64,000 nucleotides of DNA from Arthrobacter cheniae. GTDB taxonomy: Bacteria; Actinomycetota; Actinomycetes; Actinomycetales; Micrococcaceae. The notes beneath the pieces are model-generated. The model did no database searches. It was not told the DNA's origin and saw nothing but the letters and a program-made list of their open reading frames with translations. The stretch is taken from assembly GCF_003602275.1 (NCBI RefSeq), contig NZ_QZVT01000004.1, positions 178,463 to 242,462 on the forward strand. The letters are read 5' to 3'. Both the position numbers and the translations under genes were made by a program. Positions within the stretch are counted from its first letter, which is position 1; every line of letters begins with the position of its first letter. This document shows, piece by piece, positions 4,789 to 22,127 of this stretch.

Positions 4789-5982
4789 TCAGGAGAGACC
4801 GAGGACCATGGCATCAATGCGATGCGGGGACATTGCGTGATGAATAGCAAGCATGCTCGCGCCGAGTACCCCCGCATTCGGCCCTGAACTGGATTGGACG
4901 ATCTGGAGATGCTGAGTCGCCAGCGGAATGGTCCGTGAGTAGACCATTTCCCGTATACCCGCGATGAACTGCTCCCCGGTCAGCGCCATGGAGCCGCCGA
5001 TGACGATGACGGAAGGGTTGATGAGACTGACACAGGCGGACAGCACCTCGCCTACGTCCCTCCCCGCCTGGCGCACCGCGTGGATGGCTCCTGTGCTGCC
5101 TTCCCCCACCAACCGGACAACGTCCTCGCCGGTGCTCGCCTCCAGTCCCAGACTACGTAGCTTGGACGCCACAGCCGGCCCCGAGGCAACTGCTTCAAGG
5201 CAGTCCTGGTTCCCGCAGTGACAGGGGACCCCGGTGCCGCCATGCACGCGGATGTGCCCTATATCGCCCGCTACGCCGTCCGCTCCCCGCTGCAACATGC
5301 CGCTCGAGACGATGCCCGCGCCGATTCCCGTGGCGACCTTCACGAAGACGAGGTTGTCGACCTTCGGCCAGGCGACATTGCGCTCACCGAGCGCCATGAT
5401 GTTGACGTCATTGTCCACCAGTACCGGAACGTGAAAATGGCGCTGTAGGTACCCTGGAACGTCGTAGCCGTTCCAGCCGGGCATGATGGGCGGGTTGATC
5501 GGCCTGCCGGTACGGTGTTCCACCGGGCCGGGCACCCCTATCCCGATAGCCAACAGGTCAGTCAGAACTCGACCGGAGTCTATGAGGAGCTTGCTGCCGA
5601 GTTCGACAACGGCTTGAAGCACTACATCGGGACCCTGAGTGATTTCGATGGAGCGCGCACTCTGTTGAAGAATATGCCCCGTGAGGTCGGTGACCGCTAC
5701 CTGCAAATGGGATGCGCCGATGTCGACACCGAGAACCACCTTGCTTCCAGCCTTGAGCGCGATCCGAGAAGAAGGACGGCCGCCGGTGGACACGGCGTCA
5801 TTGACGAAGCCCACGAGTCCCAGTTCCATGAGCGCCTCGATGCGAAGGGTGACCGTCGACCGTGCGAGCCCCATCTGCTCGGCGAGTTCGGATCTGGTCC
5901 GGGGCCGGCCGTCTCTGAGGATCTGGAACAACTCGCTTGCTCCAGAAGAGGCAAGACCGTCGAAGCTACTTATGTCAGTCAC
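4789..5982 (-). CDS. ROK-family transcriptional regulator
   Basis: A 397-residue sugar-responsive repressor of the NagC/XylR (ROK) type. An N-terminal winged helix (ELFQILRDGRPRTRSELAEQ and LARSTVTLRIEALMELGL, about residues 15-55) is followed by an ASKHA/ROK sugar-kinase-like fold with VVLGVDIGASHLQVAV, GIGVPGPVE and the zinc-binding CHCGNQDCLEA motif. I chose the GTG at 5982 because ROK regulators normally begin just before the helix-turn-helix; an in-frame ATG at 6078 would add 32 residues with no family match. There is no Shine-Dalgarno before the GTG, and a TCTAAT -10-like box 6 nt upstream allows a leaderless transcript. It sits between the isomerase gene and the ebo-like operon and could control either. 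Confidence 0.87.
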   Translation of the reverse strand: MTDISSFDGLASSGASELFQILRDGRPRTRSELAEQMGLARSTVTLRIEALMELGLVGFVNDAVSTGGRPSSRIALKAGSKVVLGVDIGASHLQVAVTDLTGHILQQSARSIEITQGPDVVLQAVVELGSKLLIDSGRVLTDLLAIGIGVPGPVEHRTGRPINPPIMPGWNGYDVPGYLQRHFHVPVLVDNDVNIMALGERNVAWPKVDNLVFVKVATGIGAGIVSSGMLQRGADGVAGDIGHIRVHGGTGVPCHCGNQDCLEAVASGPAVASKLRSLGLEASTGEDVVRLVGEGSTGAIHAVRQAGRDVGEVLSACVSLINPSVIVIGGSMALTGEQFIAGIREMVYSRTIPLATQHLQIVQSSSGPNAGVLGASMLAIHHAMSPHRIDAMVLGLS

Positions 5983-6197
5983 CGTGCAATTAGAGCATAT
6001 GAATCGACGAAACCGATGGCAGTTTTCACAGTCAACAGCGGGAGCGAACTTCGCGGGATCTCGTGCTAATTGCCCCACTCGCGATGGCGGGGGCGCTTCG
6101 GAGTAAGAGCGGTGCGGACTTCACATAAGCCCTTCCAGTGTCGACTGAACTGCTCATCGCCGATCCCTGGATACGGCGGTCCGGATGCGGACATCCG

Positions 6198-6693: not shown

Positions 6694-7944
6694 GTGGCTA
6701 CAGCAGCCAAAGCGGTACGAAGCGCAACCATGAGCGCAGGTCCGACCTCCCACGACTACGGCAAGACGGGTATCTGGCTCATCGGCGCACGGGGCTCCGT
6801 GGCGACGACGGCCACGATGGGACTCGCTGCTATATCAGCCGGCTTCGCTGACGCCACCGGATGCGTCACGGAACAGGCGGTGTTCGACGGGGTCGATCTT
6901 CCTGGGTTCGCCGACTTCGTGGTGGGCGGCCATGACATCAGTGATGTCTCGATGGCGAAGCGCGCCGAGGCACTCGTCGAATCGGGCATGCTACCCCTAC
7001 ACCTCTTCGAGTCCGTCCGATCCCAGCTGGTGGAAGCCGACCAGCGCGTTCGGCCCGGCTACGATCCTCGGCAGGAATCAGAATCACAAGCTGAGGCAGC
7101 GCGTCGCCTCGCCTCGGATATTTCCGACTTCAGAATCTCCCACGGCCTGAGCCGTGTCATCGTCCTCGATGTGGCCTCCACCGAAGCGCCCGTGGAAACC
7201 GTCCCTGAATTCACGGACATCGATATGCTCCTGGCCGCGTTGGAAGACCCGTCACGCTCTGTTCTGCCTCCTAGCTCCATCAGCGCCTACGCCGCCGTCC
7301 TGGCCGGCTCGCCCTACGTCTGTTTCACTCCCTCCACCGCTCTTAATGTGCCTGCACTGTACGAACTTGCCGTCGGCTCAGGAGTTCCGACCGCGGGGCA
7401 GGACGGCAAGACGGGACAGACCTGGCTGCGTTCAGTCGTGGCACCGGCCCTATCCGCGCGCGGGCTCCGCGTCCTGTCCTGGGCGGGAACCAACCTGCTC
7501 GGCGGTGGTGATGGCGCCACTCTCGCGGACCCGCGGGCAGTTTCGGGGAAGCTTCAGTCCAAGAACCGAGGACTACGGGAGTTGACCGGAGGTGCCGCCA
7601 CCCCACTGCACATCGACAACGTCCAGGATCTGGGCGAGACGAAAGTCGCGTGGGACCACATCAACATCGAAGGTTTCCTCGGTTCCCGTCTCACCCTCCA
7701 GACAACCTGGACCGCCTTCGACTCGATGCTCGCCGCTCCTATGGTGCTCGACCTCTCGCGGCTGATGGCCCTCGCCCACGCCTCCGGCGAGAAGGGCCAT
7801 GTAGGCGCTCTCGGGTTCTTCTTCAAGGATCCGTGGGGAAGTAATGAGCACTCCTTCTCCCGTCAGACCGACAACCTCGTGGAATGGGCACAGACCATGA
7901 GCTCATCGACTGCAGCCGGCACGGGAATCGTCGATCAGCAATGA
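6694..7944 (+). CDS. Inositol-3-phosphate synthase-like enzyme (first gene of ebo-like operon)
   Basis: A 416-residue member of the myo-inositol-1-phosphate synthase family. Classical members convert glucose 6-phosphate to 1D-myo-inositol 3-phosphate with bound NAD. The dinucleotide-binding start GKTGIWLIGARGSVATTATM is near residues 23-42, and the catalytic-domain segments SWAGTNLLGGGDGATLADPR (about 264-283) and SRLTLQTTWTAFDSMLAAP (about 330-348) are present. The GTG at 6694 has a good AAAGGA site at correct spacing; the ATG at 6730 has none. The stop overlaps the next start as ATGA. The usual ebo cluster has a 3-dehydroquinate-synthase-like sugar cyclase (EboD) here; this operon has another sugar-phosphate cyclase. 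It may be the housekeeping MIPS or a specialised paralogue. Confidence 0.85.
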   Translation: MATAAKAVRSATMSAGPTSHDYGKTGIWLIGARGSVATTATMGLAAISAGFADATGCVTEQAVFDGVDLPGFADFVVGGHDISDVSMAKRAEALVESGMLPLHLFESVRSQLVEADQRVRPGYDPRQESESQAEAARRLASDISDFRISHGLSRVIVLDVASTEAPVETVPEFTDIDMLLAALEDPSRSVLPPSSISAYAAVLAGSPYVCFTPSTALNVPALYELAVGSGVPTAGQDGKTGQTWLRSVVAPALSARGLRVLSWAGTNLLGGGDGATLADPRAVSGKLQSKNRGLRELTGGAATPLHIDNVQDLGETKVAWDHINIEGFLGSRLTLQTTWTAFDSMLAAPMVLDLSRLMALAHASGEKGHVGALGFFFKDPWGSNEHSFSRQTDNLVEWAQTMSSSTAAGTGIVDQQ

Positions 7945-8822
7945 GCCGCGTCAACGATTATCTTGAACTGGTTCGGGCCCCGGCCATTCTCACCGTCTTC
8001 GGCGACACCCTCGCGGGTGGGTCCGCGGCCGGGCACATGCTCAGCGGTCGCCGGATCGCGCTCCCTCTTGCGAGTGCCTGCCTCTACGCCGGCGGCATGG
8101 CGCTGAACGACTACTCCGACCGCGGCACCGATGCGGACGAGCGCCCGGAACGGCCGATTCCGTCCGGGAGGATCAGCGCCCGTGCCGCCCTCTGTGCGGC
8201 CTCGACCCTCACCGTTGCCGGGCTCGCTCTCAGCGCCACCGGTGGAGGCAGGCGGGCGTTCGCACTGGCAATCCCTCTCGCCACCTCGATCTGGACCTAC
8301 GACCTCCTGGCGAAGAACTACGCAGTGCCCGGCGCGATCACTATGGGGACGTGCCGCGCTCTCGACGTCCTCATGGGCGCCGGCTTCGGGCACCTACGCC
8401 CCGCACTCGCCGCCGCAGGCATCATGGGAGGACACACGATTGCCGTCACCCTCCTGTCGCGCGGTGAGGTCGAAGGAACAACGACGGTCATAGCTTCCAG
8501 CGCCGCTGCCAGCACCGGGCTCCTTGCCGGAGCAGTCGTAGCCGGCACTCTCGGAACCCGCAGTCGAACGCTTGCCGTACTTGCGGCGGCGGCCACCTAC
8601 GCGGCGCGGTGCATGCCGGCCCAGGCCCGCGCTGCACGAGAACCGGTGGCTGGCAATGCACTCGAGGCAACGAAGGCAGGGATTCGGGCGATGGTCCCCC
8701 TGCAGGCAGCACTCACGCTTCGCCATGGGAATGTTGCCGCTGGAGTAGTGATTGCCTCCATCGATCTGGTCGGTAAGATTCTGCGGTCCCGTCCAAGAGG
8801 CTCAAGGATAAGCGAGTCATGA
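7941..8822 (+). CDS. UbiA-family prenyltransferase (SCO3242/EboC-like)
   Basis: A 293-residue integral membrane prenyltransferase of the UbiA superfamily, which transfers a polyprenyl chain from its diphosphate to an acceptor. The first Asp-rich motif is clear: NDYSDRGTDADERPERPIPSG, about residues 53-73, within alternating hydrophobic helices. The second motif near WTYDLLAKNYAVPG is degenerate, with few acidic residues. The start is the ATG at 7941, which overlaps the previous stop as ATGA; upstream in-frame codons belong to the overlapping gene. The stop again overlaps the next ATG by four bases. In ebo clusters this position is EboC, and a Streptomyces coelicolor homologue (SCO3242) also sits beside inositol-phosphate-synthase-like and isomerase-like genes. 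The acceptor is unknown. Confidence 0.85.
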   Translation: MSRVNDYLELVRAPAILTVFGDTLAGGSAAGHMLSGRRIALPLASACLYAGGMALNDYSDRGTDADERPERPIPSGRISARAALCAASTLTVAGLALSATGGGRRAFALAIPLATSIWTYDLLAKNYAVPGAITMGTCRALDVLMGAGFGHLRPALAAAGIMGGHTIAVTLLSRGEVEGTTTVIASSAAASTGLLAGAVVAGTLGTRSRTLAVLAAAATYAARCMPAQARAAREPVAGNALEATKAGIRAMVPLQAALTLRHGNVAAGVVIASIDLVGKILRSRPRGSRISES

Positions 8823-10327
8823 CGGCATCAGGCCTCACCTCGACGTCGACGATGCCCTTCAGCCTTGGGTACGGCACCAACGGATTCGCCGACCATCCCC
8901 TGCCTGTGGCGCTTGGACTGATAGCCGAGCAGGGATACGACGCCGTGGCACTGACTCTGGGCCACCCACACCTGGACCCTTACGCCGAGGACCTGGGCGA
9001 CCAGTTGCAGTCACTACGACGCCTGCTCGACGAACTGGGGCTTCGTGTCGTGATCGAAACGGGCACTCGATTCCTGCTCGATCCCCGCCACAAGCACCGG
9101 CCTGCACTGGTGGATGACGAGGCAACAACCCGCGTGGTATTCCTCCGCCGTGCTATCGACATCGCAGCAGCCCTGCAGGCAGAATGCGTGTCCTTCTTCT
9201 CCGGCGTCCTGCCGGAGGGAACCACCGCGGAAGTGGGGTGGCAGCGCCTCACCTCACGCGTCGCGGAGATCGTCGAATACGCCCGTGACAAGGGGGTTCT
9301 CCTCGCCGTCGAACCTGAACCAGGCATGGTGGTGGAAACGGTTTCTGACGTGCTGCGTCTTCGGGCGGAACTGGGGAATCCTCGCAACCTGCGGGTGACG
9401 GTGGACATCGGGCACTGTGTCGTGGTCGAGCCGGACGGTGTGCGTGGTGCCCTTCTCTTGGCAGGCCCTCTACTGGCCAACGTGCAACTGGACGATATGC
9501 GGCCCCACGCCCACGAACACCTCCCGTTCGGCGAAGGAGATGTGGACCTGCCCCTGGCACTCGCTACCCTGGCCGAATTGGACTACCGCGGCGTGGCCGC
9601 AGTAGAGCTACCTCGACACTCGTATGACGCTCCGGGACTGGCGGCACGGAGTATTCATGCCCTTCGCGCCGGCTGGCACGACGCAGGGAGGATTGGGGAG
9701 AACGGACGGTGGCTGCAGGAGAGCGCGACGGCGATCGCCACAGGAACCGGCACCCTTTCCACGATTTTCACCTTGGCCCGTCGCCACGTCGGCCGCGGTC
9801 CGATACGTCCGGACAACGATCCGACCGGTGTTCTCTTCGGCACCGCATGTGACCACCTGAGGGGCCAGTTGATCGGTCGACTGGGGGATGTCCTCCCGCC
9901 AGATGAACTGGCTCAGGCCTTGCTGACGCTCTATGGCAACGGCGACTCAGCGGAACGCCGTGGGGTACTCAGGGGATTAGGAGCGTTGTCCACAGGCTCG
10001 CAGCAACTTCCCGACACGGTCGTGTCCGTAGGCCTGCGCCTGACGAACGAGGCCCTACGGACCAATGAAAGCGGTGTCGTTGCTGCCGCCGTCGGTCCGT
10101 TCGCGGCCACCTATCTGGACCAGCACAGTTGGCGCCATGCCGTTCTGAAGCTGGTCTTCATGGGAATCAGTCTCCAGGCCGTCGCCCATCTTACGGAACG
10201 GGCCGACGACGAACTCGCCCGGATGGCGAGCGACTTCGCCGCCGAACGCACCGCCGCAGGGAGACCTGTCCCGGATGACGTCCAGCTGCTCCTGCAAGCC
10301 TCCTCCAGCTACTCGACTTCGTCCTAA
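8819..10327 (+). CDS. Xylose-isomerase-like TIM barrel fused to EboA domain
   Basis: A 502-residue two-domain protein. Residues about 10-285 form a sugar phosphate isomerase/epimerase (AP endonuclease 2) barrel, with metal-ligand segments LLAVEPEPGMV, VTVDIGHCV and VAAVELPRHS. Residues about 290-500 match the EboA domain, including ALLTLYGNGDSAERRGVLRG, NEALRTNESGVVAAAVGPFA and WRHAVLKLVFMGISL. EboA is normally a separate small protein in ebo clusters; here it is joined to a second isomerase-like barrel, distinct from EboE encoded downstream. The fusion argues that the two act on the same metabolite. It overlaps UbiA by four bases and is followed by the TatD gene after 12 nt. No signal peptide, so cytoplasmic. 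Confidence 0.85.
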   Translation: MTASGLTSTSTMPFSLGYGTNGFADHPLPVALGLIAEQGYDAVALTLGHPHLDPYAEDLGDQLQSLRRLLDELGLRVVIETGTRFLLDPRHKHRPALVDDEATTRVVFLRRAIDIAAALQAECVSFFSGVLPEGTTAEVGWQRLTSRVAEIVEYARDKGVLLAVEPEPGMVVETVSDVLRLRAELGNPRNLRVTVDIGHCVVVEPDGVRGALLLAGPLLANVQLDDMRPHAHEHLPFGEGDVDLPLALATLAELDYRGVAAVELPRHSYDAPGLAARSIHALRAGWHDAGRIGENGRWLQESATAIATGTGTLSTIFTLARRHVGRGPIRPDNDPTGVLFGTACDHLRGQLIGRLGDVLPPDELAQALLTLYGNGDSAERRGVLRGLGALSTGSQQLPDTVVSVGLRLTNEALRTNESGVVAAAVGPFAATYLDQHSWRHAVLKLVFMGISLQAVAHLTERADDELARMASDFAAERTAAGRPVPDDVQLLLQASSSYSTSS

Positions 10328-10339
10328 GGGAAGCCACCC

Positions 10340-11218
10340 ATGCGCCTCTTCGACCCGCACATCCACATGACAAGCCGCACCACCGATGACTACGCAGCCA
10401 TGTACGCCAGTGGAGTGCGTGCCCTTGTGGAGCCTGCTTTCTGGTCGGGGCAACCCCGCACCAACGTGGGTTCCTTCATCGACTACTTCGACTCACTACT
10501 GGGTTGGGAGAGGTTTCGTGCCGCCCAGTTCGGTATTCGGCATCACGCCACGATCGCCCTCAACCCCAAGGAGGCGAACGATCCCCGGTGCGTTCCCATT
10601 CTGGAAGAGTTGCCCCGCTACCTCATCAAGGAAGGCGTCGTTGCCGTTGGTGAGATCGGCTATGACTCCATGACTGCCGCCGAGGACGAGGCATTCAGCC
10701 GGCAGTTGGAACTCGCTCTCGAGTTCTCACTGCCGGTGATGGTGCACACTCCGCACAGGGAGAAGCTCGCCGGCACCTACCGCACCCTCGACGTCGTGCG
10801 CGAGTCGGGAGTCGCTCCCGGGATGGTCGTCGTCGACCACCTGAACGAGACGAATGTGGAACTGGTGAAGAACGCGGGAGCCTGGATGGGATTCTCCATC
10901 TACCCGGACACGAAGATGGACGAGCAGCGCATGGTTGCCATCCTCGCCCGGTACGGGACCGAAAGGGTGCTGGTCAACTCCGCTGCTGACTGGGGCAGGT
11001 CCGACCCGCTGAAGACCTTCAGTACCGCCAATGCCATGCTCGCGGCCGGCTTCACGAGCGACGACGTCGACCAGGTCCTGTGGTGCAACCCTGTGGAGTT
11101 CTATGGACAAAGCGGACAGCTGATCCTCGGTCCGATTCCGGGGTTCGATGAGGCTGGGCCGCTGGACGCTACGGCGGGCTTCGAGGGCAATTCGGTTCTC
11201 AGGGGTGCTCGCGCCTGA
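10340..11218 (+). CDS. TatD-family metal-dependent hydrolase (EboB-like)
   Basis: A 292-residue amidohydrolase-fold protein related to TatD nucleases and to EboB. Metal ligands are visible in order: HIH at residues 7-9, GEIGYD near 107-112, VHTPH near 135-139, DHLNETN near 162-168 and SAADWG near 217-222. The family uses a two-metal centre for hydrolysis of phosphodiesters or small metabolites. The start has an AAGGGAAG site at 10327-10334. The stop TGA and the next ATG share one base. Being in the operon with EboA, EboE and EboF homologues it probably acts on the pathway intermediate rather than on DNA; that is inference. Confidence 0.85.
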   Translation: MRLFDPHIHMTSRTTDDYAAMYASGVRALVEPAFWSGQPRTNVGSFIDYFDSLLGWERFRAAQFGIRHHATIALNPKEANDPRCVPILEELPRYLIKEGVVAVGEIGYDSMTAAEDEAFSRQLELALEFSLPVMVHTPHREKLAGTYRTLDVVRESGVAPGMVVVDHLNETNVELVKNAGAWMGFSIYPDTKMDEQRMVAILARYGTERVLVNSAADWGRSDPLKTFSTANAMLAAGFTSDDVDQVLWCNPVEFYGQSGQLILGPIPGFDEAGPLDATAGFEGNSVLRGARA

Positions 11219-12351
11219 TGCTGCTCTCCTACTGCACCAACGTCCATCCAGCCGAGGACCTCGACGGCGTGATCCGGCAACTCCACGAGTACTCGGGGCC
11301 GATCCGCCGCACCGCAGGCCTGGACACTCTCGGCGTCGGACTGTGGCTACCTGCCGAACTGGCCGCCCAGCTGGCCGGCAGCGCCGAGGACCGGGCCGCT
11401 CTCCACGATGTCCTCAGCGCTGAAGGCCTGCAGCTACACACCATCAACGCATTCCCCTTCGGTGGCTTCCACAACGAGGTGGTCAAACTCGAGGTCTATA
11501 AACCCACCTGGGCGGAGCGCGAGCGGCTGGACTACACCCTGAACTGCGCCGAGGTGCTCGCGGCATTGCTGCCGGAGGACACAGCCGGTTCGATCTCCAC
11601 CCTGCCTCTTGCGTGGCGTGAGCCCTGGACGCGGCAGGACGACGATGACGCCACTGCCGCGTTCGCCGAGCTCAGCTCCCGATTGCGGGATCTCCGCGAG
11701 CGCACGGGAAGAACCATTCGCGTCGCCGTCGAACCGGAGCCGGGGTGTGTCCTGGACACGGTCGCTGATGTCGTCGAGTGGCTGGGAGCTCGAATCCACC
11801 GGGGTATCGATCCTGAATTCGTAGGGCTGTGTGTGGACACCTGCCACCTCGCCGTCTCATTCGCAGACCCTGCCGACGCCGTGAAGGAGATCGACGCGGC
11901 GGGCCTGCGGATAGTGAAGGTGCAGGCCTCAGCCGCCCTGCACGTCACCGACCCCTCCGATCCGGCAGCACGGGAGGCTCTGGAGGGCTTCGTCGAGCCG
12001 CGTTATCTCCACCAGGTGCGGGAGCTGCAGCCCACCGGTGTCCTGGCTGCCGACGATCTCCCGGAAGCACTCACCGACCTGCCGCGGGAGAATGCATGGC
12101 GGGTCCACTTCCATGTCCCACTCCACCACGTGCCGTCCGCCCCGCTGAGAACCACCGTGGACGTGCTGGTGCGGACCGTGGCCGAAGTCGGCCAGTTGGC
12201 CTATGGGCCTGAGGTACACCTCGACATCGAGACCTATACCTGGAGCGTGCTGCCCGGCGCGTCGGTGGGTATTACTGAAGGGATTGCAGCTGAGATCGCA
12301 TGGGCAGGGTCGAACCTGTCTCCTACCCAGCCGTCACTCCAGAACTGTTGA
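11218..12351 (+). CDS. eboE: Metabolite traffic protein EboE
   Basis: A 377-residue TIM-barrel protein of the EboE family. The N-terminal signature LLSYCTNVHPAEDLD (2-16) is characteristic, followed by barrel segments TINAFPFGGFH, VAVEPEPGCVLDTV, VGLCVDTCHLAV and a C-terminal HFHVPLHH and HLDIETYTWSVLP that supply likely metal-binding His, Asp and Glu residues. In Nostoc punctiforme the ebo genes are needed to move the scytonemin precursor to the periplasm; the biochemical activity of EboE has not been established to my knowledge. Its start overlaps the TatD stop by one base, so translational coupling is likely. Confidence 0.88.
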   Translation: MLLSYCTNVHPAEDLDGVIRQLHEYSGPIRRTAGLDTLGVGLWLPAELAAQLAGSAEDRAALHDVLSAEGLQLHTINAFPFGGFHNEVVKLEVYKPTWAERERLDYTLNCAEVLAALLPEDTAGSISTLPLAWREPWTRQDDDDATAAFAELSSRLRDLRERTGRTIRVAVEPEPGCVLDTVADVVEWLGARIHRGIDPEFVGLCVDTCHLAVSFADPADAVKEIDAAGLRIVKVQASAALHVTDPSDPAAREALEGFVEPRYLHQVRELQPTGVLAADDLPEALTDLPRENAWRVHFHVPLHHVPSAPLRTTVDVLVRTVAEVGQLAYGPEVHLDIETYTWSVLPGASVGITEGIAAEIAWAGSNLSPTQPSLQNC

Positions 12352-12388
12352 TGCCGCGCACCACTGACAGCCCGATGCAAGGAAAACC

Positions 12389-13789
12389 GTGAAACCCGTA
12401 CTGCTGTTGAACGTCGTCGGCCTGACCGCCAAGGCACTGAGCCGGATGCCTCGTCTCTCCCGGCTGGCCACACAGGGATGGTCCTCGGAACTGGCCACCG
12501 TGCTGCCTGCCGTGACCTGCACCGTCCAGTCCACGATGCTGACCGGCCTGGCCCCGGCGCAGCACGGGATCGTGGGAAACGGGTGGTACTTCAGGGAACT
12601 CGGGGATATTTCCTTCTGGCGTCAGCACAACAGGCTCGTCAGCGGTGAGAAGATCTGGGAGACCGCCCGCCGGCAGGATCCGACATACCGTGCTGGAAAC
12701 ATCTGTTGGTGGTACGCCATGGGAATGTCCACCGATCTGACGGTGACACCCCGACCCATCTATCATGCGGACGGCCGCAAGTCTCCCGATGCCTACGTGC
12801 GCCCGGCGGAGCTGCACGACGAGTTGGTGGCCCACTACGGCGACTTCCCGCTCTTCCAGTACTGGGGTCCTACGGCGTCCATCGCGTCGAGTCAATGGAT
12901 CGTCAACTCCACCAGGCACATCATGCGCACTCAGGCGCCAGAGCTGCTGATGGCCTACCTGCCGCACCTGGACTACGACCTGCAACGGTTCGGGCCCGAC
13001 TCGCCACAGGCCGCCCATGCAGCCGCCGAGCTCGACAGCGCGCTCGCCCCACTGCTGGACGACGCCGAGGCGCAGAACTACACGGTGATCACGGTGGCCG
13101 AGTACGGGATCGAAGAAGCCCACACCCCGGTGGACATCAATCGTGTTCTGCGGCGGGAGGGGTTGCTCGAGGTCTACGTCCAGGGCGGCAGGGAACAACT
13201 CGACCCGTGGACCTCCCGCGCCTTTGCTGTCGCCGACCACCAGGTAGCCCACGTCTACGTGTCGGATCCAGCTCACCTCAAACGGGTCGCCGCTATTCTT
13301 CGCGGCATCGACGGCGTGGACGAGGTCCTCGACCGGGAGGCACAGGCACGCCACGGCCTCGACCATGAGAGGTCCGGGGAACTCATCGTCATCGCCGAGC
13401 CCGGGGCCTGGTTCACCTACTACTTCTGGCTCGACGATCAGCGTGCGCCGGAATACGCACGAGGCGTTGATATCCACCGTAAGCCCGGCTACGACCCCGC
13501 TGAGTTGTTCTTCGATCCAGCGGACAGATTGGCGAAGGCAAAAGCAGGAATGAATCTGGCCAAGAAAAAAACGGGTCTGCGGTACGCCATGAGCACGGTC
13601 CCCCTTGATCCGACATGTGTACGCGGAACCCACGGACGACTACCTGAGTCCCCGGACGGCAGACCACTGATCATCGGTTCGGATCATCGAGTCCCCCCCT
13701 TGGTGGAGGCCCTCCTCAGCAGCGGTCGGCAGGTCCCTGCCGCTGCTGTGAAGGGCCTTGTGCTCCAGACGCAGGGATTTGAGGTATAG
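12389..13789 (+). CDS. Alkaline-phosphatase-superfamily phosphodiesterase (EboF-like)
   Basis: A 466-residue nucleotide pyrophosphatase/phosphodiesterase-type protein and the last gene of the operon. The nucleophile Thr lies in the segment LPAVTCTVQSTMLTGLAP (about residues 39-56); HGIVGNGW follows, with later Asp/His segments LPHLDYDLQRFG, TVAEYGIE and GSDHRVP that fit the two-zinc site. There is no signal peptide, so it is cytoplasmic or membrane-associated. It starts 38 nt after EboE. EboF homologues close many ebo clusters and may remove or exchange a phosphate or nucleotidyl group on the transported product; this is inferred from family and position. Confidence 0.85.
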   Translation: MKPVLLLNVVGLTAKALSRMPRLSRLATQGWSSELATVLPAVTCTVQSTMLTGLAPAQHGIVGNGWYFRELGDISFWRQHNRLVSGEKIWETARRQDPTYRAGNICWWYAMGMSTDLTVTPRPIYHADGRKSPDAYVRPAELHDELVAHYGDFPLFQYWGPTASIASSQWIVNSTRHIMRTQAPELLMAYLPHLDYDLQRFGPDSPQAAHAAAELDSALAPLLDDAEAQNYTVITVAEYGIEEAHTPVDINRVLRREGLLEVYVQGGREQLDPWTSRAFAVADHQVAHVYVSDPAHLKRVAAILRGIDGVDEVLDREAQARHGLDHERSGELIVIAEPGAWFTYYFWLDDQRAPEYARGVDIHRKPGYDPAELFFDPADRLAKAKAGMNLAKKKTGLRYAMSTVPLDPTCVRGTHGRLPESPDGRPLIIGSDHRVPPLVEALLSSGRQVPAAAVKGLVLQTQGFEV

Positions 13790-14041: not shown

Positions 14042-16261
14042 ATGACGAGAAAAGAGTGGATGATGACAGTCAATCGACACGAGGTAGCGAAAGCTCCGGT
14101 GCGCCGCAGCAGAGCCACCAGCTTTTCAGAGAGACGCTCAGTCCGAGTAGGCGCCGGGCTGGCGATGGCAGCACTCATGGCAACGTCCTTTGCCGTCACC
14201 CCGGCGGTGGCCGAGCCCAGCGCTCCGGCGGAAGCCGCGCCGGCGGACACGAGCTTCCAGAAAGTAACACTCAACGACGGCCCGGGCGAGCCTGTGGATC
14301 TCGCGGTACTTCCCAACGAGAATGTTCTGCACACCACCCGTGGTGGCGAGGTCTGGCTCAACGATGCAAAGACCGGACTCAATAGCCTTGCCGCAACACT
14401 CGATGTCTATCAGCATGACGAAGAGGGCCTGCAGAGCGTCGCGCTCGACCCCGAATTCGGGACCAAGGGCAACAATTGGGTCTACCTGTACTACTCACCG
14501 CCACAGGACACTCCGGTCGATGACCCCTCGACCACAGGGGTCAACGAGGGTGATGCACCTACCACGGGCACGGCGGCGGACTTCGAGAAGTTCAAGGGTT
14601 CCCTCACTCTTTCCCGCTTCAAGTTCGACGGCTCCACCATCGACCTCGCCAGCGAGCAGGAGATCCTCGAGGTTCCCGTGGACCGGGGCATTTGCTGCCA
14701 TGTCGGCGGTGACATCGTCTTCGACGCCCAGGGCGATCTCTACCTCTCGACCGGTGATGACACCAATCCGTTCTCGTCGGGCGGTTTCACGCCCCTCGAT
14801 GAACGTCCGAACAGCAACCCGGCATTCGATGCCCAGCGAACCTCCAGCAATACCAATGACTTGCGCGGCAAGGTGCTACGCATCACCCCGAAGGACGGTG
14901 GCGGCTACACCGTCCCCGAGGGCAATCTCTTCGAGCCGGGTACAGCGCAGACCCGACCTGAGATCTACGTGATGGGTTTGCGCAATCCATTCCGCATCGA
15001 ACTGAGCAAGAGCACGGGCGAACTCTTCATTGCTGACTACTCACCCGATGCCAGGACGGCGGATCCCCTCCGTGGACCCTCCGGCACAGGAAAATGGGCT
15101 GTTGTCACCGAACCGTCCAACTATGGCTGGCCCTACTGCGCTACCGCAGAACTGCCGTACAACGACTACGACTTCGCCACCTCCACCTCCGGTAAGGCCT
15201 TCGACTGCGCGGCACCCGTGAATGAGTCGCCGAACAACACCGGGCTTCGCGAGCTGCCTCCGGTAGCCCAACCAGAAGTCTGGTACAGCTACGGCGCCTC
15301 GTCCGAATTCCCTCAGCTCGAAACCGGCGGAATCGGCCCCATGGCCGGCCCGGCCTACGAATTCGACACGAAGGCAACGAGTGGTCAGGCACCCGTCGCC
15401 TGGCCTGCCTACTACGACGGTAAATCCTTCTTGTACGAGTGGACCCGCGACTACATCAAGGCCATGACTGTCGACAACGGCGACCTCGCCTCGATCGAGA
15501 ACGTGGCCCGCTCCTTGGTCGTCGATAATCCCATTGACATGGAATTCGGGCCCAACGGCGCCCTCTACGTCCTTGAATACGGTGACGGCTACTTCGGAGA
15601 GAACCCCGATGCGCAGCTGTCCCGCATCGACCACATCGGCGTGAACGGGAACCACAGCCCCGTGGCTGCAGCCTCCGGCACACCGACTGTGGGAGCTTCA
15701 CCGCTGACCGTCCAGTTCTCGAGCGAAGGCACCACCGACGCGGACGGCGACAAGCTCCGCTACGAGTGGGATTTCAACTCCGATGGCGTCGTGGACTCCG
15801 AGGAAGCCAACCCCACCCGGACGTACGAGGAGAACGGAACCTCCACGGCGAGCCTGAAGGTCACCGATCTCGGTGGCAAGCACCGCGGTCGCCACTCCTC
15901 CGTCGAGGTGCCGATCGAAGTGGGAAACCAGGCCCCGGTCGTCGAGTTCATCAGTCCCGTCGCGAGCCAGGGCTTCGAATTCGGCGATACCGTCACCTTT
16001 GATGTCCGAGTGACGGATGACCAGCCTGTTGACTGCTCGAAGGTCCAGGTGACCTACATCCTGGGTCACCACACCCACGGCCATCCGCAAACCACAACCA
16101 GTGGTTGCACGGGTACCATCACCACCACCGTGCCTGAGGGCCACGACCCCGCTGTCGATGATCTCTCCGCCGTCTTCAGCGCAACCTACACCGACGCGGG
16201 CGATCAGGCATCAGCTCCGTTGACCGGAACCGCTGAGGTGGTACTCACGGCGACCAACTGA
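14042..16261 (+). CDS. Secreted PQQ-type sugar dehydrogenase with PKD domain
   Basis: A 739-residue exported protein. Residues about 1-57 form a signal peptide with a basic N-terminus and hydrophobic core ending AVTPAVAEPS. Residues about 70-545 are the soluble glucose/sorbosone-dehydrogenase beta-propeller, with DEEGLQSVALDPEF, CCHVGGDIVFDAQGDLYLS, GLRNPFRIEL and EPSNYGWPYC. Residues about 550-640 are a PKD domain (YEWDFNSDGVVDS), and a further Ig-like region follows. Such enzymes oxidise aldoses with PQQ; no PQQ biosynthesis genes are in the window. The start is uncertain: in-frame ATGs at 14060 and 14063 follow a GAAAAGAG site, while 14042 has none. A strong hairpin ends the gene. Not clearly part of the ebo-like operon. 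Confidence 0.85.
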   Translation: MTRKEWMMTVNRHEVAKAPVRRSRATSFSERRSVRVGAGLAMAALMATSFAVTPAVAEPSAPAEAAPADTSFQKVTLNDGPGEPVDLAVLPNENVLHTTRGGEVWLNDAKTGLNSLAATLDVYQHDEEGLQSVALDPEFGTKGNNWVYLYYSPPQDTPVDDPSTTGVNEGDAPTTGTAADFEKFKGSLTLSRFKFDGSTIDLASEQEILEVPVDRGICCHVGGDIVFDAQGDLYLSTGDDTNPFSSGGFTPLDERPNSNPAFDAQRTSSNTNDLRGKVLRITPKDGGGYTVPEGNLFEPGTAQTRPEIYVMGLRNPFRIELSKSTGELFIADYSPDARTADPLRGPSGTGKWAVVTEPSNYGWPYCATAELPYNDYDFATSTSGKAFDCAAPVNESPNNTGLRELPPVAQPEVWYSYGASSEFPQLETGGIGPMAGPAYEFDTKATSGQAPVAWPAYYDGKSFLYEWTRDYIKAMTVDNGDLASIENVARSLVVDNPIDMEFGPNGALYVLEYGDGYFGENPDAQLSRIDHIGVNGNHSPVAAASGTPTVGASPLTVQFSSEGTTDADGDKLRYEWDFNSDGVVDSEEANPTRTYEENGTSTASLKVTDLGGKHRGRHSSVEVPIEVGNQAPVVEFISPVASQGFEFGDTVTFDVRVTDDQPVDCSKVQVTYILGHHTHGHPQTTTSGCTGTITTTVPEGHDPAVDDLSAVFSATYTDAGDQASAPLTGTAEVVLTATN

Positions 16262-16365: not shown

Positions 16366-17655
16366 TCAGGCCGTCTGCGCCGGCACTGGAATCTCGTTAT
16401 GGACGGCTTCTACGACGGCGGTACGCAGGCGCAGGAATCCGGCAGGGTCACGGATGAGCGGCTCGAAGGCCAATTCGGCAGCGCCGACCAGAATCGAATC
16501 ATCCCCTAGGGGCGCGAGCTCGATGGACACATTCTCGCGCGGCCCCCGGGTCGCCGTCGTGCTCAACGCCTCGCTGAGGGCACCAGGGGCGGCCCGGACG
16601 AGAATCCTCAGAAAACCACCCAGGACGACCATCGAGGGATTGAGGAGGTTGACCACACTCTTCAGCCCGACAGCCAACACCTGGACCTGCCGGTCAATGA
16701 CTTCCCGCAGATCAGAGGACTGAACCTGATCCTGGAGGCGCTCCATGATGACTTCTTCGAGGTTCTCCGTCTCGCCGTGAGGAAGATCCACTGCGGCGAT
16801 CAGCTCTTCGCGGGTGATCTCGGCTTCGAGGCATCCATTGGATCCGCAGGTACACCGCACCCCTCCCGTACGGACGTGCGTGTGGCCCAACTGCCCAGCG
16901 AAACCGGAGGAACCGTGGATGAGGCGCCCGCCACTGATCACTCCACCGCCGATGCCGCTGGCGCCGCCGTAGAGATAGACAAGATCGGACACACCGCAAC
17001 CGGCGCCGAAGGTTGCCTGCGCTCGTGCGCCCGCTACGGCGTCATTCGCTGCAATCACGGGAAGCTTCAGCGCCTCACTGAGCCTGGCCGCAAGAGGCTC
17101 GTCTCGCCAGCCCAGGTGCGGCGCATCGATGACGGTTCCGCCGACGGGATCCACCAGGCCAGGGATCGCAAGACCGACTCCGACAACCCGTTGATGTGCG
17201 GGAAGCGAGGTCCGCATGCCCGCGTAGATTGCGGACACGATATTCACCACCTCAGCGGCCGACGGAGCGCGCACGGTGTGAAAACGAACGGCGTTGACGA
17301 TATGCCCGCCGAGCGAGACAAGGGCGACCGTGACCACATCGACATCGGGGTTCACGGCCAAGGCCAACGCGCCGGGACTCGGCTGGATCATTATGCTCGG
17401 GCGGCCGTACTGCTGCGCCTGGTCCAGGTCGCTTTCTACAACGAGACCCAGCTGAACGAGCTCCGCAACGAGCGCTGCGATCGTCGAGCGGTTGAGCCCG
17501 GTCGCCCGGGTGAGTTGCGAGCGGGACACTCCCGACAAGGAATGTACGAGCCCGAGAACGGTGGAGAGATTGTGCTGGCGGGTGGAATCCCGATTATTGC
17601 CGAGGTTCGTACCCGTAAGAATTCGCCGACTGCGCTCGGGCGGTAAGGATGTCAT
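16366..17655 (-). CDS. ROK-family transcriptional regulator
   Basis: A 429-residue ROK repressor. The winged-helix part spans about residues 28-75 (HNLSTVLGLVHSLSGVSRSQ, LNRSTIAALVAELVQLGL), and the C-terminal kinase-like fold has VGVGLAIPGLVDPVGG and a zinc motif CTCGSNGCLEAEI. Its neighbours are the ribose-type ABC genes on the same strand and, beyond them, the binding-protein/dehydrogenase genes on the opposite strand, so it most likely represses that uptake locus in response to a sugar, polyol or its phosphate. A ligand cannot be named. The ORF begins with an ATG at 17655, with about 27 residues before the first helix. Confidence 0.87.
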   Translation of the reverse strand: MTSLPPERSRRILTGTNLGNNRDSTRQHNLSTVLGLVHSLSGVSRSQLTRATGLNRSTIAALVAELVQLGLVVESDLDQAQQYGRPSIMIQPSPGALALAVNPDVDVVTVALVSLGGHIVNAVRFHTVRAPSAAEVVNIVSAIYAGMRTSLPAHQRVVGVGLAIPGLVDPVGGTVIDAPHLGWRDEPLAARLSEALKLPVIAANDAVAGARAQATFGAGCGVSDLVYLYGGASGIGGGVISGGRLIHGSSGFAGQLGHTHVRTGGVRCTCGSNGCLEAEITREELIAAVDLPHGETENLEEVIMERLQDQVQSSDLREVIDRQVQVLAVGLKSVVNLLNPSMVVLGGFLRILVRAAPGALSEALSTTATRGPRENVSIELAPLGDDSILVGAAELAFEPLIRDPAGFLRLRTAVVEAVHNEIPVPAQTA

Positions 17656-18270
17656 GTCGCAGGATCCTCACGTGCAGCAGATTCGCTACTTCGACCTGAG
17701 GCCGAAGCGCTGAGGGAGGATGTGGCCGCAGGCATCACGTCTTCCCTTCTACCCGGGTTCAGATCCTTCCGAGCAGATTGCCTTGGAGCAGGATCAGTTC
17801 CTTCATGATAACGGCAGAGGAGGCGCCAAGAGATGTCGGGGATCAACCGGGTGCGACTGATGCTGGACTGTTTCGGGACGGAGCCGCATGTGTGCGGGGC
17901 TCGCTTGCAGGACCTCAGGCATTACGTCAGCCTGCAGGGGCCTTACTGCGGGACGGGCCTCCTCCTCGACCGTCGTCATGGCCGAGGAGGAGGAGCCGCA
18001 GGACCAGCATGATCGGATAAGCCCCGTATCCGGGCGCATCATGTCCGCGAATGCGATCAGCGAGGGGATTGGCGTGAACACACGTACTGAGACAGCGCGC
18101 AGTTTCGCGTTCGTGAAGAACTGTCGAAGAGCACCATCGACCAGGTCGAAGTCCGTAGCGCCGCTCAGCTCCTGGTGCAAGCCCTTGGAGTTCAAGTCCC
18201 CGCCACCCGCGTCATCGTCCCTTCCTCGGGAATTTCTGGCAGCCGTCCCGGCGGCGGCCTGTAGCTTGAC
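17656..18270. other. 615-bp gap without an identifiable gene
   Basis: The reading frames here (for example minus-strand 17803-18195 and plus-strand 17888-18274) have no clear ribosome binding site and resemble no family I know. The composition is a little less GC-biased than the flanking genes. It may be a decayed gene or a long spacer holding the ROK promoter and the end of the ABC transcript. Confidence 0.4.
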
Positions 18271-19323
18271 CTAGCTCTTCATTCGGCGCGGACCGCGGGC
18301 TGCGAAGCGCTGCTGCAGCAGAACGGCGCCGACGAGGATCAGGCCCCTGGCCAGCGCCTGGATGGAGGTATCCAGGTTGTTCTGGGTGAAGACGTTGACC
18401 AGGGTGCTGAAGATCAGCACGCCGAGGACGGTGCCCATGATCGTGCCGCGCCCACCGATGAGCAGCGTCCCACCGACCACGACGGCAGCGATCACGTCGA
18501 GTTCGAGGAGCAGGCCATGGGTGGACGTACCGGCCGTGGTGCGGCCGAGGAACATGACGCCGCCGATGCCGGAGGTGAGGCCTGCGAGGACGTACAGGTA
18601 GACCAGGTGGCGCTTCACCTTGATGCCCGCCAGGCGCGATGCTTCGAGGTTTCCACCGATGGCGATGGTACGGCGCCCGAACGTGGTGCGGTTCAGGAGG
18701 AACCAACCTGCGGCTGCGACGATCACGAAGATCCAGATGAGGATGGGGATGCCCAGGAGCTCGGAGCGCATGACCTGCAGGAAGTCCCTGTTGGAGACGA
18801 TCTGGGTGCTGCGGCCGGAGATCAGCTCCGCGAGACCTCGTGCTCCCACGAGCATTGCCAATGTGGCGATGAACGCGACGACGTTGCCGTACGCGATCAA
18901 CACTCCATTGATCAGTCCAGCACCTGCGCCGACGGCGAGCGCCACGATGACCATGAGGATCCAGGACGACTGGGTTGCTGCCAGTTGCACGCTCGTGAGG
19001 CTGGCGACCACTGTCGTCAGGCCGATGACCGAGCCCACGGATAGATCGATGCCGCCGGCCGTGATGACGAAGGTGACGCCGATGCTCACCACGCCGATGA
19101 TCGATGCGTAGCGCAGGATGGTCAGCATGTTCTCGACGTTGAGGAAACGGTCTCCGCTGGTGACCCCACCTACCACGATGAGCAGTGCGAGTGCGATGAT
19201 CAAGCCCAGGTTCCGCCCCGAAGAGCCCCTCAGGGCGCTTCGGACGGGGTTGGACTTGTGGCTGCTGGGCTCGTCCGTCGCGTCGGTACGCGGTTCAGCC
19301 GCCTTGGTTTTCTGCTCGCTCAC
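18271..19323 (-). CDS. Ribose/sugar-type ABC transporter permease
   Basis: A 350-residue integral membrane permease of the RbsC/XylH (BPD_transp_2) type that forms the translocation path of a monosaccharide or polyol importer. The basic, charged N-terminus of about 30 residues precedes 8-10 hydrophobic segments, including GVTFVITAGGIDLSVGSVIG near 105-124, the family's conserved GGIDLSVGS motif, and RTTFGRRTIAIGGNLEAS near 215-230, the cytoplasmic loop contacting the ATPase. Its start overlaps the ATPase stop by 4 nt (ATGA), so the two are translationally coupled. Confidence 0.92.
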   Translation of the reverse strand: MSEQKTKAAEPRTDATDEPSSHKSNPVRSALRGSSGRNLGLIIALALLIVVGGVTSGDRFLNVENMLTILRYASIIGVVSIGVTFVITAGGIDLSVGSVIGLTTVVASLTSVQLAATQSSWILMVIVALAVGAGAGLINGVLIAYGNVVAFIATLAMLVGARGLAELISGRSTQIVSNRDFLQVMRSELLGIPILIWIFVIVAAAGWFLLNRTTFGRRTIAIGGNLEASRLAGIKVKRHLVYLYVLAGLTSGIGGVMFLGRTTAGTSTHGLLLELDVIAAVVVGGTLLIGGRGTIMGTVLGVLIFSTLVNVFTQNNLDTSIQALARGLILVGAVLLQQRFAARGPRRMKS

Positions 19324-20840
19324 GCGGCACTTCCCTTCATGACGAGGTCGAGCACGCCGTGCTCGTCGATATCGCTTGCGTTGGTTTGGGTGAGGACCTT
19401 GCCGTCGTCGATGACCAGTACCTTGTCGGCAAGGCCGAGTACTTCCTCGATCTCGCTCGAGACCACGATGATGGCTGTACCATCCGCGGCGAGCTTCCGG
19501 ATGAGCGCGTAGATTTCGGCCCGCGCGCCGACGTCGACCCCGCGGGTGGGTTCGTCCAGCAGAAGCACTGGTGTTCCGTGGACGAGCCAGCGGGCGAGGA
19601 GGATCTTCTGCTGGTTGCCGCCGGACAGCGTTCGGGCCGGCCGGTCAGGATCAGCCGGGCGCAGCTCCAGTGCTGTGATCTGCCCCCGTGCTGCATCGCG
19701 CTCCGCACGCTCGTTGAGATAGCCGCCACGGGCGAAGCGTTCGAACGTCGACAGCGTGACGTTCTTGAAGATCGGTTCGTCGAGGATGAGTCCCTGGCTC
19801 TTGCGCTCTTCCGGCGAGAGGCCGATTCCTGCGTTGACTGCTGAATTCACCGACCCCGCCCGGAGGGGCTTGCCGTTGACCCGGACCTTTCCGGCGGACG
19901 CCTTGCGGGCTCCGTAGATGGTCTCGAGGATCTCGGACCTCTTGGAGCCCACGAGTCCGGCGAAGCCGAGGATCTCTCCCGCCCGGACGGTGAAATTCAC
20001 CCTCTCGAAGTGTCCGTCGAGCTCCAGGTCCTCGACCTCGAGGACGACGGGTGCGTCCACCGGGATGGGGGTGCGTACCGGGAAGACGTTCTCGACGTCC
20101 CTGCCCGTCATCAGCCGAATGAGCTGCTCCCTGGGCGTATCCGTCACGCTGAGCCCGTTTGCCGTGCTGCGGCCGTCCTTGATGACGGAGATGCGGTCGC
20201 CGATCTGCCGGATCTCCTCGAGCCGGTGCGAGATGTAGACCACGGCGATCCCCTGCGCCGTGAGTTCACGGACCACACGGAAGAGGTTCGCGACTTCCCC
20301 GGAGTCCAGGATGGCGCTCGGTTCGTCCATGATGATCATCTTCGTGTCACGCGACAGGGCACGGGCCATGCTCACGATCTGCTTGTTGGCCGCCGACAGC
20401 GTACCGACCTCGGTGGAAGGCGGGAGGTCGCCGTGTCCGAGCCGCTTCAGCAGCGCGCGAGCCAGGGCATTGGTCTTCTTGACCTGCAGCACTCCACCGC
20501 TGGAGCGTTCGTGCCCCAGGAAGATGTTCTCGGCGACGGACAGCCCGTCGACGACGTCGAGCTCCTGGTACATGGTGGCGATGCCAAGATCGAGCGCCGA
20601 GGTAGGACCGGCGAGGGATATCTCCTTGCCTTCCCAGCGGATCTCCCCGCTATCGGGCTGATGGACGCCGGAGAGGGTCTTGATAAGGGTGGATTTTCCT
20701 GCGCCGTTCTGCCCCATGACGCAATGGACTTCCCCCGGAAGAACCTGCAGGTCTACGCCTTTCAGTGCCTGGACACCAGCAAATTGCTTGGTGATTCCCC
20801 GAACTTCGAGCAACGGCCGCGGCTGATCATCTTCGAACAT
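19320..20840 (-). CDS. Sugar ABC transporter ATP-binding protein, double cassette
   Basis: A 506-residue RbsA/MglA/XylG-type ATPase with two nucleotide-binding cassettes. The first has Walker A GQNGAGKSTLIK near 43-54, a signature that reads LSAANKQIVSMARAL rather than LSGGQ, and Walker B MIIMDEPSA. The second has a degenerate Walker A (GLVGSKRSEILE) but a full signature LSGGNQQKILLARWL and Walker B VLLLDEPTRGVD; this asymmetry is usual for the subfamily. It drives import through the permease encoded just downstream with an overlapping start. The gene diverges from the binding-protein gene across 154 bp. Confidence 0.93.
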   Translation of the reverse strand: MFEDDQPRPLLEVRGITKQFAGVQALKGVDLQVLPGEVHCVMGQNGAGKSTLIKTLSGVHQPDSGEIRWEGKEISLAGPTSALDLGIATMYQELDVVDGLSVAENIFLGHERSSGGVLQVKKTNALARALLKRLGHGDLPPSTEVGTLSAANKQIVSMARALSRDTKMIIMDEPSAILDSGEVANLFRVVRELTAQGIAVVYISHRLEEIRQIGDRISVIKDGRSTANGLSVTDTPREQLIRLMTGRDVENVFPVRTPIPVDAPVVLEVEDLELDGHFERVNFTVRAGEILGFAGLVGSKRSEILETIYGARKASAGKVRVNGKPLRAGSVNSAVNAGIGLSPEERKSQGLILDEPIFKNVTLSTFERFARGGYLNERAERDAARGQITALELRPADPDRPARTLSGGNQQKILLARWLVHGTPVLLLDEPTRGVDVGARAEIYALIRKLAADGTAIIVVSSEIEEVLGLADKVLVIDDGKVLTQTNASDIDEHGVLDLVMKGSAA

Positions 20841-20908
20841 GTGACTAAGCTAACACATTATGTCGACTATCGGCCCAAAGTCGTCGATTTCCCTCGTTCT
20901 TCTGTTAT

Positions 20909-20924
20909 TGTGATTCCAGTCACG
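20909..20924. promoter_or_regulatory. CRP/GlxR-type site TGTGA-N6-TCACG
   Basis: TGTGA (20909-20913), six bases, then TCACG (20920-20924) match nine of ten arms of the CRP/GlxR consensus TGTGA-N6-TCACA. It is 70 nt before the binding-protein start and lies in the divergent region shared with the ABC ATPase gene, a sensible place for cAMP-linked control. Binding is inferred. Confidence 0.5.
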
Positions 20925-20994
20925 TAAGGCCGCAGCCATGGATCCACCCACCGCCTCCTTGCGATGACGCACCTAACTCATCGAGGAGATACAG

Positions 20995-22038: not shown

Positions 22039-22049
22039 AAGCATGAACG

Positions 22050-22083: not shown

Positions 22084-22127
22084 TTCGATCCAACAGCTAC
22101 TACAACCGCCGCCGGATAAGAGGAAAC

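Follow-up and report, generated by a model that had tools for sequence, protein, structure and literature searches.

What does a myo-inositol phosphate synthase (MIPS) do in an operon that otherwise resembles the ebo clusters, whose cyclase is EboD? The question is raised by a 64,000-nucleotide stretch of the Arthrobacter cheniae genome (assembly GCF_003602275.1, contig NZ_QZVT01000004.1, positions 178,463 to 242,462 of the forward strand), referred to below as the window; the host genome is 4.0 Mb, in 37 contigs, and 99% complete. Six plus-strand open reading frames (ORFs) at 6694-13789 encode MIPS, a UbiA prenyltransferase, a fusion of a triosephosphate isomerase (TIM) barrel with EboA, EboB, EboE and EboF, and form one tight operon (Table 1). 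We conclude that this operon is a new, widespread inositol-type variant of the known ebo system, in which MIPS very probably does the work of EboD.

A tight six-gene operon of the ebo type

The initial annotation had described six genes with overlaps or very short gaps, and all six ORFs were confirmed at these positions. The UbiA ORF as listed starts at 7884; an in-frame ATG at 7941, which overlaps the MIPS stop codon as ATGA, is its likely start. Counted from this ATG, the successive joints are −4, −4, +12, −1 and +37 nucleotides, that is, a UbiA/TIM overlap of 4 nucleotides (8819/8822), a gap of 12 between the fusion and EboB, an EboB/EboE overlap of 1 and a gap of 37 before EboF. Domain profiles were taken from Pfam and NCBIfam and scored against curated cut-offs. 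The models for the EboA domain (NF035938, 137.8 bits against a cut-off of 50, at the C-terminus of the fusion protein P0003) and for EboE both passed, which bears out the earlier assignment of the operon to the ebo type. Promoter and terminator scans gave nothing above chance.

Table 1. Features of the operon and its surroundings, in window coordinates
Feature	Position	Strand	Profile or alignment evidence
MIPS-family cyclase, inositol-3-phosphate synthase type, dedicated ebo clade	6694..7944	+	PF07994 4.5e-50, PF01658 2e-25
UbiA-superfamily prenyltransferase, EboC position, SCO3242 family	7941..8822	+	PF01040, NF045897 301.7 bits (cut-off 260)
Fusion of ketose-3-epimerase-like TIM (residues ~1-290) and EboA (~295-496)	8819..10327	+	PF01261 4.1e-38, NF035938 2.7e-40
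EboB, TatD-like metal-dependent hydrolase	10340..11218	+	PF01026 8.4e-14
EboE, xylose-isomerase-like TIM barrel	11218..12351	+	PF01261; NF035939 428 bits (cut-off 250)
EboF, type I phosphodiesterase/nucleotide pyrophosphatase family	12389..13789	+	PF01663 6.6e-66
P0007, secreted GSDH (PQQ-type beta-propeller dehydrogenase family) with PKD	14042..16261	+	PF07995 2.9e-27, PKD_4 6.3e-16
ROK-family regulator, divergent from operon	4789..6078	-	PF00480 1.3e-57, helix-turn-helix
Polyprenyl diphosphate synthase gene remnant	18085..18165	-	tblastn match of 27 residues, 67%, E 1.2e-5

Conservation was examined in 99 other actinobacterial EboE loci. Eighty are from named genomes, being the best 80 of 563 confirmed EboE matches, which biases the sample towards close relatives, and 19 are from a draw of 396 genomes across the phylum, in which 19 genomes were EboE-positive (E up to 0.001), 18 of them over the curated cut-off. 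G128 contributes two of the 19 fetched stretches, which do not include the locus of the window. The whole order MIPS-UbiA-TIM-EboA-EboB-EboE-EboF was present in 83 of the 99 loci and MIPS in 84. Eight of the 15 loci without MIPS (L023, L024, L026, L031, L036, L042, L054 and L057) are cut by a contig end that lies no more than about 3 kb ahead of EboE. Four others are from Lentzea, and all four genomes hold elsewhere a MIPS 56-58% identical to the operon MIPS of the window (P0001), one of these remote copies having an internal stop. L107 is an EboD-type locus of a deep actinobacterial branch, with neither MIPS nor TIM. L104 and L120, described below, make up the 15. TIM and EboA form a single ORF in 48 and separate ORFs in 44 of the 92 loci showing both.

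Over 83 loci, pairwise distances of MIPS correlated with those of the other five operon proteins with r of 0.78-0.91, against a permutation maximum of 0.18; this correlation also reflects species phylogeny. Because the order recurs in 83 of 99 loci and the MIPS distances track the other five proteins, the association is not due to chance, and the possibility weighed in the initial annotation, that the order has no conservation outside this strain, falls away. The operon is unevenly distributed, occurring in 7 of 38 genomes within the own genus and in 12 of 97 relatives. The phyla listed there as carriers of ebo clusters (cyanobacteria, Bacteroidetes and Proteobacteria) were too few, since Actinobacteria appear in two publications. 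The first, from 2016, mentions TIM-EboA hybrids in Actinobacteria, as data not shown, and also some ebo operons that lack eboD (PMC5133447); the second, from 2022, shows an ebo locus of Saccharomonospora (PMC9235831). The word 'inositol' is absent from the main text of PMC5133447. A published alternation of MIPS and EboD was not found in the literature searched, which covered few subscription papers and no supplements.

Two cyclase families for one slot

EboD was found in none of the 84 MIPS-bearing loci. Conversely, ten EboD-type loci (L107, Azospirillum, Ketogulonicigenium, Salipiger, Roseivivax, Mycetohabitans, Gloeothece, Aureibacter and two of Deinococcus) had neither MIPS nor a relative of the operon TIM nearby (E 1e-6); the Gloeothece stretch holds EboB and EboD only. 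When EboD was sought in the 99 actinobacterial loci, it was absent in 98, the sole case being L107. Members of the 3-dehydroquinate (DHQ) synthase family were likewise missing near the ebo locus in 18 of the 19 phylum-draw genomes. The sole case, G381, has no PF07994 match and a single MIPS away from its ebo locus. In the window's genome, the only gene of the DHQ-synthase family is on a different contig from the operon. A hidden EboD near the ebo locus was considered and rejected on these counts (98 of 99 loci, 18 of 19 genomes).

The two cyclases are thus mutually exclusive in the loci examined, in agreement with the earlier claim that MIPS sits in the slot of EboD, and a functional swap of one for the other is very likely. 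The TIM-EboA fusion had also been named correctly; what had been missed is that the TIM is absent from classical sets and goes with MIPS. Because no TIM relative occurs in the ten EboD-type loci, the extra TIM travels with MIPS and not with EboD. Since two different cyclase families fill the same slot, the ebo system would need a cyclitol, for which earlier authors had EboD only as a hint. A ring-shaped cyclitol is probably the conserved chemical core of the system.

A MIPS clade tied to the operon

P0001 matches PF07994 (171 bits) and PF01658 (89.5 bits), both above cut-off, and the closest structure overall is the MIPS (Ino1) 1u1i (E 1e-52). D225, K227, N255, D261, K274, K278, K306 and D332 (Archaeoglobus fulgidus numbering) are kept in all 84 operon MIPS, and the residue aligned to A. 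fulgidus K367 in 83 of them. We take the aligned residues to be catalytic; for two of the lysines this is seen from their replacement in the 3qvw and 3qvx alignments. The operon enzyme is thus like 1u1i in fold family and catalytic residues, but its clade is distinct and goes with the ebo operon. In a tree of 36 operon MIPS (from the 84 loci and the window), 14 other MIPS of ebo genomes and 8 further sequences, the operon MIPS form one side of a branch with support of 91/98, away from canonical Ino1. This second tree leaves out L127, which was in the wrong frame in the first, where the support was 79 and the nearest named relatives of the window's operon MIPS were from Pseudarthrobacter genomes.

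Outside the operon, a second MIPS was found in 15 of 17 genomes with MIPS in the ebo locus, the exceptions being G268 and G318 (the latter 82% complete). In the window's genome it lies about 4 kb from an MshA-family gene on the same contig (C16:490644 and C16:485399), which makes it unlikely that the operon proteins act in unrelated primary pathways, the other outcome considered in the initial annotation. The idea that the operon MIPS is the sole MIPS of its genome was rejected: PF07994 misses canonical actinobacterial Ino1, and PF01658 shows the second copy.

Shared ebo proteins and the added TIM barrel

EboB, EboE, EboF, the EboA domain and a UbiA enzyme are common to the window operon and the classical eboABCDEF clusters of Nostoc, Bacteroidetes and eustigmatophyte plastids (PMC5133447, PMC6282210). 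EboB is 51-59% identical to its counterparts in EboD-type clusters of Proteobacteria, Gloeothece and Aureibacter, and 39-40% to those of Deinococcus and G381; EboF is 47-55% identical to EboF of nine of the ten EboD-type clusters, and was not found in the Gloeothece stretch. The classical clusters differ in having EboD, whereas the window operon has MIPS and the extra TIM, in the order MIPS-C-TIM.A-B-E-F. The TIM of the window type is often fused to EboA, and its UbiA passes the SCO3242 model, not the EboC model.

The AlphaFold2 model of the TIM-EboA fusion has a predicted local distance difference test (pLDDT) score of 90. Its TIM domain matches UlaE (Foldseek E 1.7e-12) and ketose 3-epimerases, and E165, D196, Q223 and E263 are invariant in 29 aligned fusions. 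The fold is alike in ketose and ketose-phosphate 3-epimerases (UlaE, tagatose 3-epimerase), although identity is only about 20%. EboA modelled alone gave a confident all-helical solenoid (pLDDT 96). A Foldseek search of the Protein Data Bank (PDB) with it gave no significant match (best E 0.06), and kinship to HEAT repeats was rejected, as a VIA-align Z of 12.9 to SF3B1 is within the range given by helical repeats. From the model, EboA is best described as a helical solenoid, and we claim nothing more specific.

The prenyltransferase and its prenyl supply

The UbiA protein (P0002) passes NF045897 ('SCO3242 family prenyltransferase'; Table 1) and fails NF035940 for EboC (161.9 against 250), a cut-off that divides weakly, the UbiA of the EboD-type L107 also lying below it (96 bits). 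The kinship with the Streptomyces SCO3241-3243 set suggested earlier is thereby upheld; we presume the layout of that set in S. coelicolor. In PMC3610822, SCO3243 appears as a myo-inositol phosphate synthase and is grouped, together with SCO3242, with the cluster of the calcium-dependent antibiotic (CDA). A published function for the SCO3242 family was not found in the literature searched.

Both Asp-rich motifs, NDxxDxxxD (N56, D57, D60, D64) and YDxxxK (Y120, D121, K125; numbering from the ATG at 7941), are kept; the role of such motifs in Mg/diphosphate binding is stated in PMC9235831. These motifs and R139 are common to MIPS-type and EboD-type UbiA proteins. The two types part at position 142 (D in 90 of 94 MIPS-side proteins versus V, S or C in 8 of 9 EboD-type), position 165 (H in 91 of 94 versus Y in 5 and H in 2 of 9) and position 255 (Q in 93 of 94 versus D in 8 of 9), which may reflect another acceptor or only descent. 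A polyprenyl diphosphate synthase gene is present in 23 of the 99 loci, directly upstream of MIPS in several Agromyces and Nakamurella loci and G268, and downstream of the GSDH gene in Micrococcaceae. At the place of the window's remnant it is intact in the Arthrobacter-like loci L003-L006 and L008; the window ORF there has only 130 residues.

The UbiA-297 enzyme of PMC9235831 is likewise ebo-borne, and Saccharomonospora ebo loci appear in Figure 3 of that paper, according to which ebo UbiA enzymes farnesylate 8-hydroxyquinoline-2-carboxylate. The three assayed enzymes were from Maribacter, Zobellia and Algoriphagus, and its accessible text describes EboD and does not mention MIPS.

A secreted dehydrogenase associated with the operon

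P0007, which begins after a gap of 252 nucleotides, is associated with the operon and perhaps forms a separate transcript. Its GSDH domain scores 96 bits against a cut-off of 25 for PF07995, and an N-terminal signal peptide was recognized by eye. A homologue is present in 43 of the 99 ebo loci. In the 19 ebo genomes of the phylum draw, a GSDH gene lay within 10 kb of EboE in 11, against 0.32 expected from gene counts, a statistic that treats genomes as independent although eight of the 19 belong to one genus (g9) that supplies six of the 11. The 11 genomes span five families.

Among the relatives, P0007-type proteins (E up to 1e-40) were present in 10 of the 12 ebo-positive genomes and in none of the 85 ebo-negative ones. 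For the phylum the counts were 15 of 19 ebo-positive versus 4 of 377 ebo-negative genomes (Fisher 2.7e-20), with two candidates scored per genome; kinship is ignored in both comparisons. Taken over both counts, in each of which the window's genome figures, 25 of 29 P0007-positive genomes were ebo-positive. The exceptions were G031, G258, G347 and G353, with a P0007-type protein and no EboE, and G150, G318, G352 and G381, with EboE and no such protein. In the own genus P0007 and the operon are neighbours and may simply move together. Unlinked copies occur elsewhere: 133 kb from one of the two EboE genes in G467; on other contigs in G268, where EboE lies well inside a 277 kb contig; about 14 kb away (one copy) and on other contigs (four) in G473; and on other contigs of the draft G481. 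The co-occurrence of GSDH-PKD with ebo gives a concrete read-out for the inositol type.

PqqE was over cut-off in 3 of the 19 ebo genomes, including the window's, and in 3 of the 15 with both ebo and a P0007-type protein. Because it is found in only 3 of 19, ebo does not mark synthesis of pyrroloquinoline quinone (PQQ) either way, and its use as a marker of the presence or absence of PQQ synthesis was rejected.

Ebo-like sets beyond the phylum

Among plasmid records outside the actinobacteria, 14 of 22 EboB records were opened (those left were four of Ketogulonicigenium, two of Mycetohabitans, one of Salipiger and a weak one of Halomarina), as were 8 of 44 MIPS records. A Gemmatirosa plasmid carries a MIPS-type set, with EboB, EboF, UbiA, MIPS and TIM on one strand and EboE on the other. 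Plasmids of Halobaculum, Natronococcus and Halocatena carry TatD, two TIM proteins, UbiA, MIPS and a phosphodiesterase; Haladaptatus has a set without MIPS on the same plasmid. Ebo-like sets thus extend to archaea. MIPS relatives in Halomarina, Hymenobacter and Roseomonas were not within ebo-like sets. The MIPS tree does not separate one origin from independent recruitment for the haloarchaeal, Gemmatirosa and actinobacterial sets.

Dehydrogenases near ebo sets outside the phylum, each a single observation, were a GSDH with a copper-binding domain in Natronococcus, a PQQ dehydrogenase in Salipiger and a DUF7133 protein with cytochrome c in Ketogulonicigenium. The other seven non-actinobacterial EboD-type stretches had no annotated dehydrogenase.

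A proposed pathway and its competitors

EboD and EboC have been proposed to make an isoprenoid-cyclitol hybrid (PMC5133447). We propose that the cyclitol core is made by EboD in classical clusters and by the dedicated MIPS, together with the added ketose-epimerase-like TIM, in clusters of the window type. In the latter, MIPS would cyclise glucose 6-phosphate to an inositol phosphate, as its intact catalytic residues suggest. The TIM barrel, held by the EboA solenoid, and EboE may then adjust the stereochemistry or oxidation state of the ring, and EboF may remove or transfer phosphate, to judge from the fold families of these proteins. At the inner face of the membrane, UbiA would then prenylate the cyclitol, in keeping with its motifs and the clustered prenyl diphosphate synthases. 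For these three steps taken together we see even odds. Three things make a prenylated cyclitol plausible as product, namely the motifs of UbiA, the prenyl synthase gene found beside some operons and the export phenotype published for scytonemin; we would give it the same chance as its absence. In that phenotype, each of five single ebo deletions in Nostoc confines the scytonemin monomer to the cytoplasm (PMC6282210). More tentatively, and on the grounds of genome co-occurrence and this export defect, the prenyl-cyclitol might act in the membrane as a carrier, or as a factor needed for oxidation outside the cytoplasm, here by the secreted GSDH-PKD protein. A broader version is doubtful: that both ebo types, in bacteria as well as archaea, make a prenylated cyclitol which serves extracytoplasmic oxidoreductases, chiefly beta-propellers, as a membrane-borne carrier or cofactor, enzyme and operon being mutually dependent in the inositol type. 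Its partners would be the actinobacterial GSDH-PKD, the Natronococcus GSDH-cupredoxin, the PQQ- or DUF7133-type dehydrogenases of Salipiger and Ketogulonicigenium, and periplasmic ScyE of scytonemin synthesis, which we take to be a beta-propeller.

Several points weigh against the prenyl-cyclitol pathway. No product has been seen so far, and the lipid-linked product and its role are what we infer. The product of MIPS is a phosphorylated alcohol and that of EboD is thought to be an unphosphorylated ketone, therefore the downstream routes cannot be identical. In vitro, the Flavobacteria EboC Ubi-297 farnesylates quinoline carboxylic acids, and this speaks for an aromatic acceptor; all of the 14 acceptors assayed were aromatic (PMC9235831). 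The window lacks an intact prenyl synthase and retains only the 27-residue remnant. Two actinobacterial loci deviate. L104 is the second ebo copy of G128 and lacks an adjacent MIPS, the genome having another, MIPS-type copy. L120 (G279) has EboA-EboB-EboE-EboF, EboE being split, and neither MIPS nor UbiA nor TIM was found locally. In 7 of 18 MIPS-side genomes (G107, G150, G204, G246, G334, G352 and G369) there are extra, unclassified DHQ-synthase-family matches far from the ebo locus, those in G107, G334 and G352 below cut-off. The Ketogulonicigenium EboD-type locus adjoins another PF01261 protein, of no detectable kinship to the operon TIM, and neither EboA nor a clear EboE was found in the haloarchaeal sets.

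Among other explanations, the product might be a prenylated cyclitol of the usual secondary-metabolite kind, secreted or in the membrane, and neither carrier nor factor; this is unlikely but deserves the most thought. It would suit the scattered occurrence of ebo (EboE above cut-off in 18 of the 396 phylum genomes, besides the 7 of 38 in the own genus), the presence of the operon on Streptomyces plasmids, in the single case inspected beside a nonribosomal peptide synthetase, a phosphopantetheinyl transferase and transporters, and the counting of SCO3242-3243 with the CDA cluster (PMC3610822). However, because neighbours differ between lineages while the core stays constant, an accessory module fits better than one product, and in Nostoc the ebo mutants have a transport defect for another compound (PMC6282210). 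Catabolism of imported anhydro- or keto-sugars, with TIM, TatD and phosphodiesterase processing 3-keto sugars and MIPS incidental, has a small probability. Sugar ATP-binding cassette (ABC) transporter genes, ROK, Gfo/Idh and further TIM proteins do recur around the operon, and Gfo/Idh and TIM genes stand beside the Ketogulonicigenium and Haladaptatus sets. Such a route needs neither a biosynthetic MIPS nor UbiA, however, and most Cellulosimicrobium, Oerskovia and Streptomyces loci have no ABC transporter genes in the fetched stretch (L105 has an ABC ATPase).

Two further explanations concern MIPS itself. That it makes another ring, such as the five-membered cyclitol phosphate named for PDB 6k96, is improbable: this structure is detectably related (E 3e-7) and the operon clade is divergent, but the best match of the enzyme overall is the true MIPS 1u1i, and all checked catalytic residues are intact. 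That it merely supplies inositol for mycothiol or phosphatidylinositol would agree with its family membership and intact residues; given the second MIPS near the MshA-family gene and in 15 of 17 MIPS-type ebo genomes, and a separate clade whose distances track the operon, we regard this as very improbable indeed. The prenyl-cyclitol pathway is accordingly the reading we prefer.

Neighbouring genes and other features

The divergent ROK protein is, from its position, a candidate regulator of the operon; its cluster (c9) occurs in 27 of 100 loci. A second group of genes at 16366-24395 of the window comprises a ROK regulator, a ribose-type sugar ABC transporter, a Gfo/Idh enzyme and a TIM protein, a module also seen next to ebo operons of other families. 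The closest NCBIfam model to the Gfo/Idh enzyme is levoglucosan dehydrogenase, at 365 bits below the cut-off of 650. In the accessible text of PMC10066097, on levoglucosan, prenyltransferases are not mentioned.

An FAD (flavin adenine dinucleotide) oxidoreductase gene and one of the inositol monophosphatase family lie near L104. Among haloarchaeal plasmids, L156, L161, L162 and L171 hold compact sets in which TatD, two TIM proteins, UbiA and a phosphodiesterase stand together, three of them with MIPS, and ABC, ThuA, Gfo/Idh or DUF1080 genes lie nearby in L161, L162 and L171. Three EboD-type loci from three phyla (L167, 17-3099; L169, 10981-14262; L170, 4073-7133) stand beside genes for a ferritin-like protein, confirmed as PF12902 in L167 and L170 and annotated in L169, and for a large protein, which in L167 has no Pfam family match. 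In the window, the minus-strand gene at 47775-52805 encodes a protein of 1676 residues with GDSL-type esterase, fn3 and rhamnogalacturonan lyase (family 11) domains, which by its domain content is probably a pectin-degrading enzyme.

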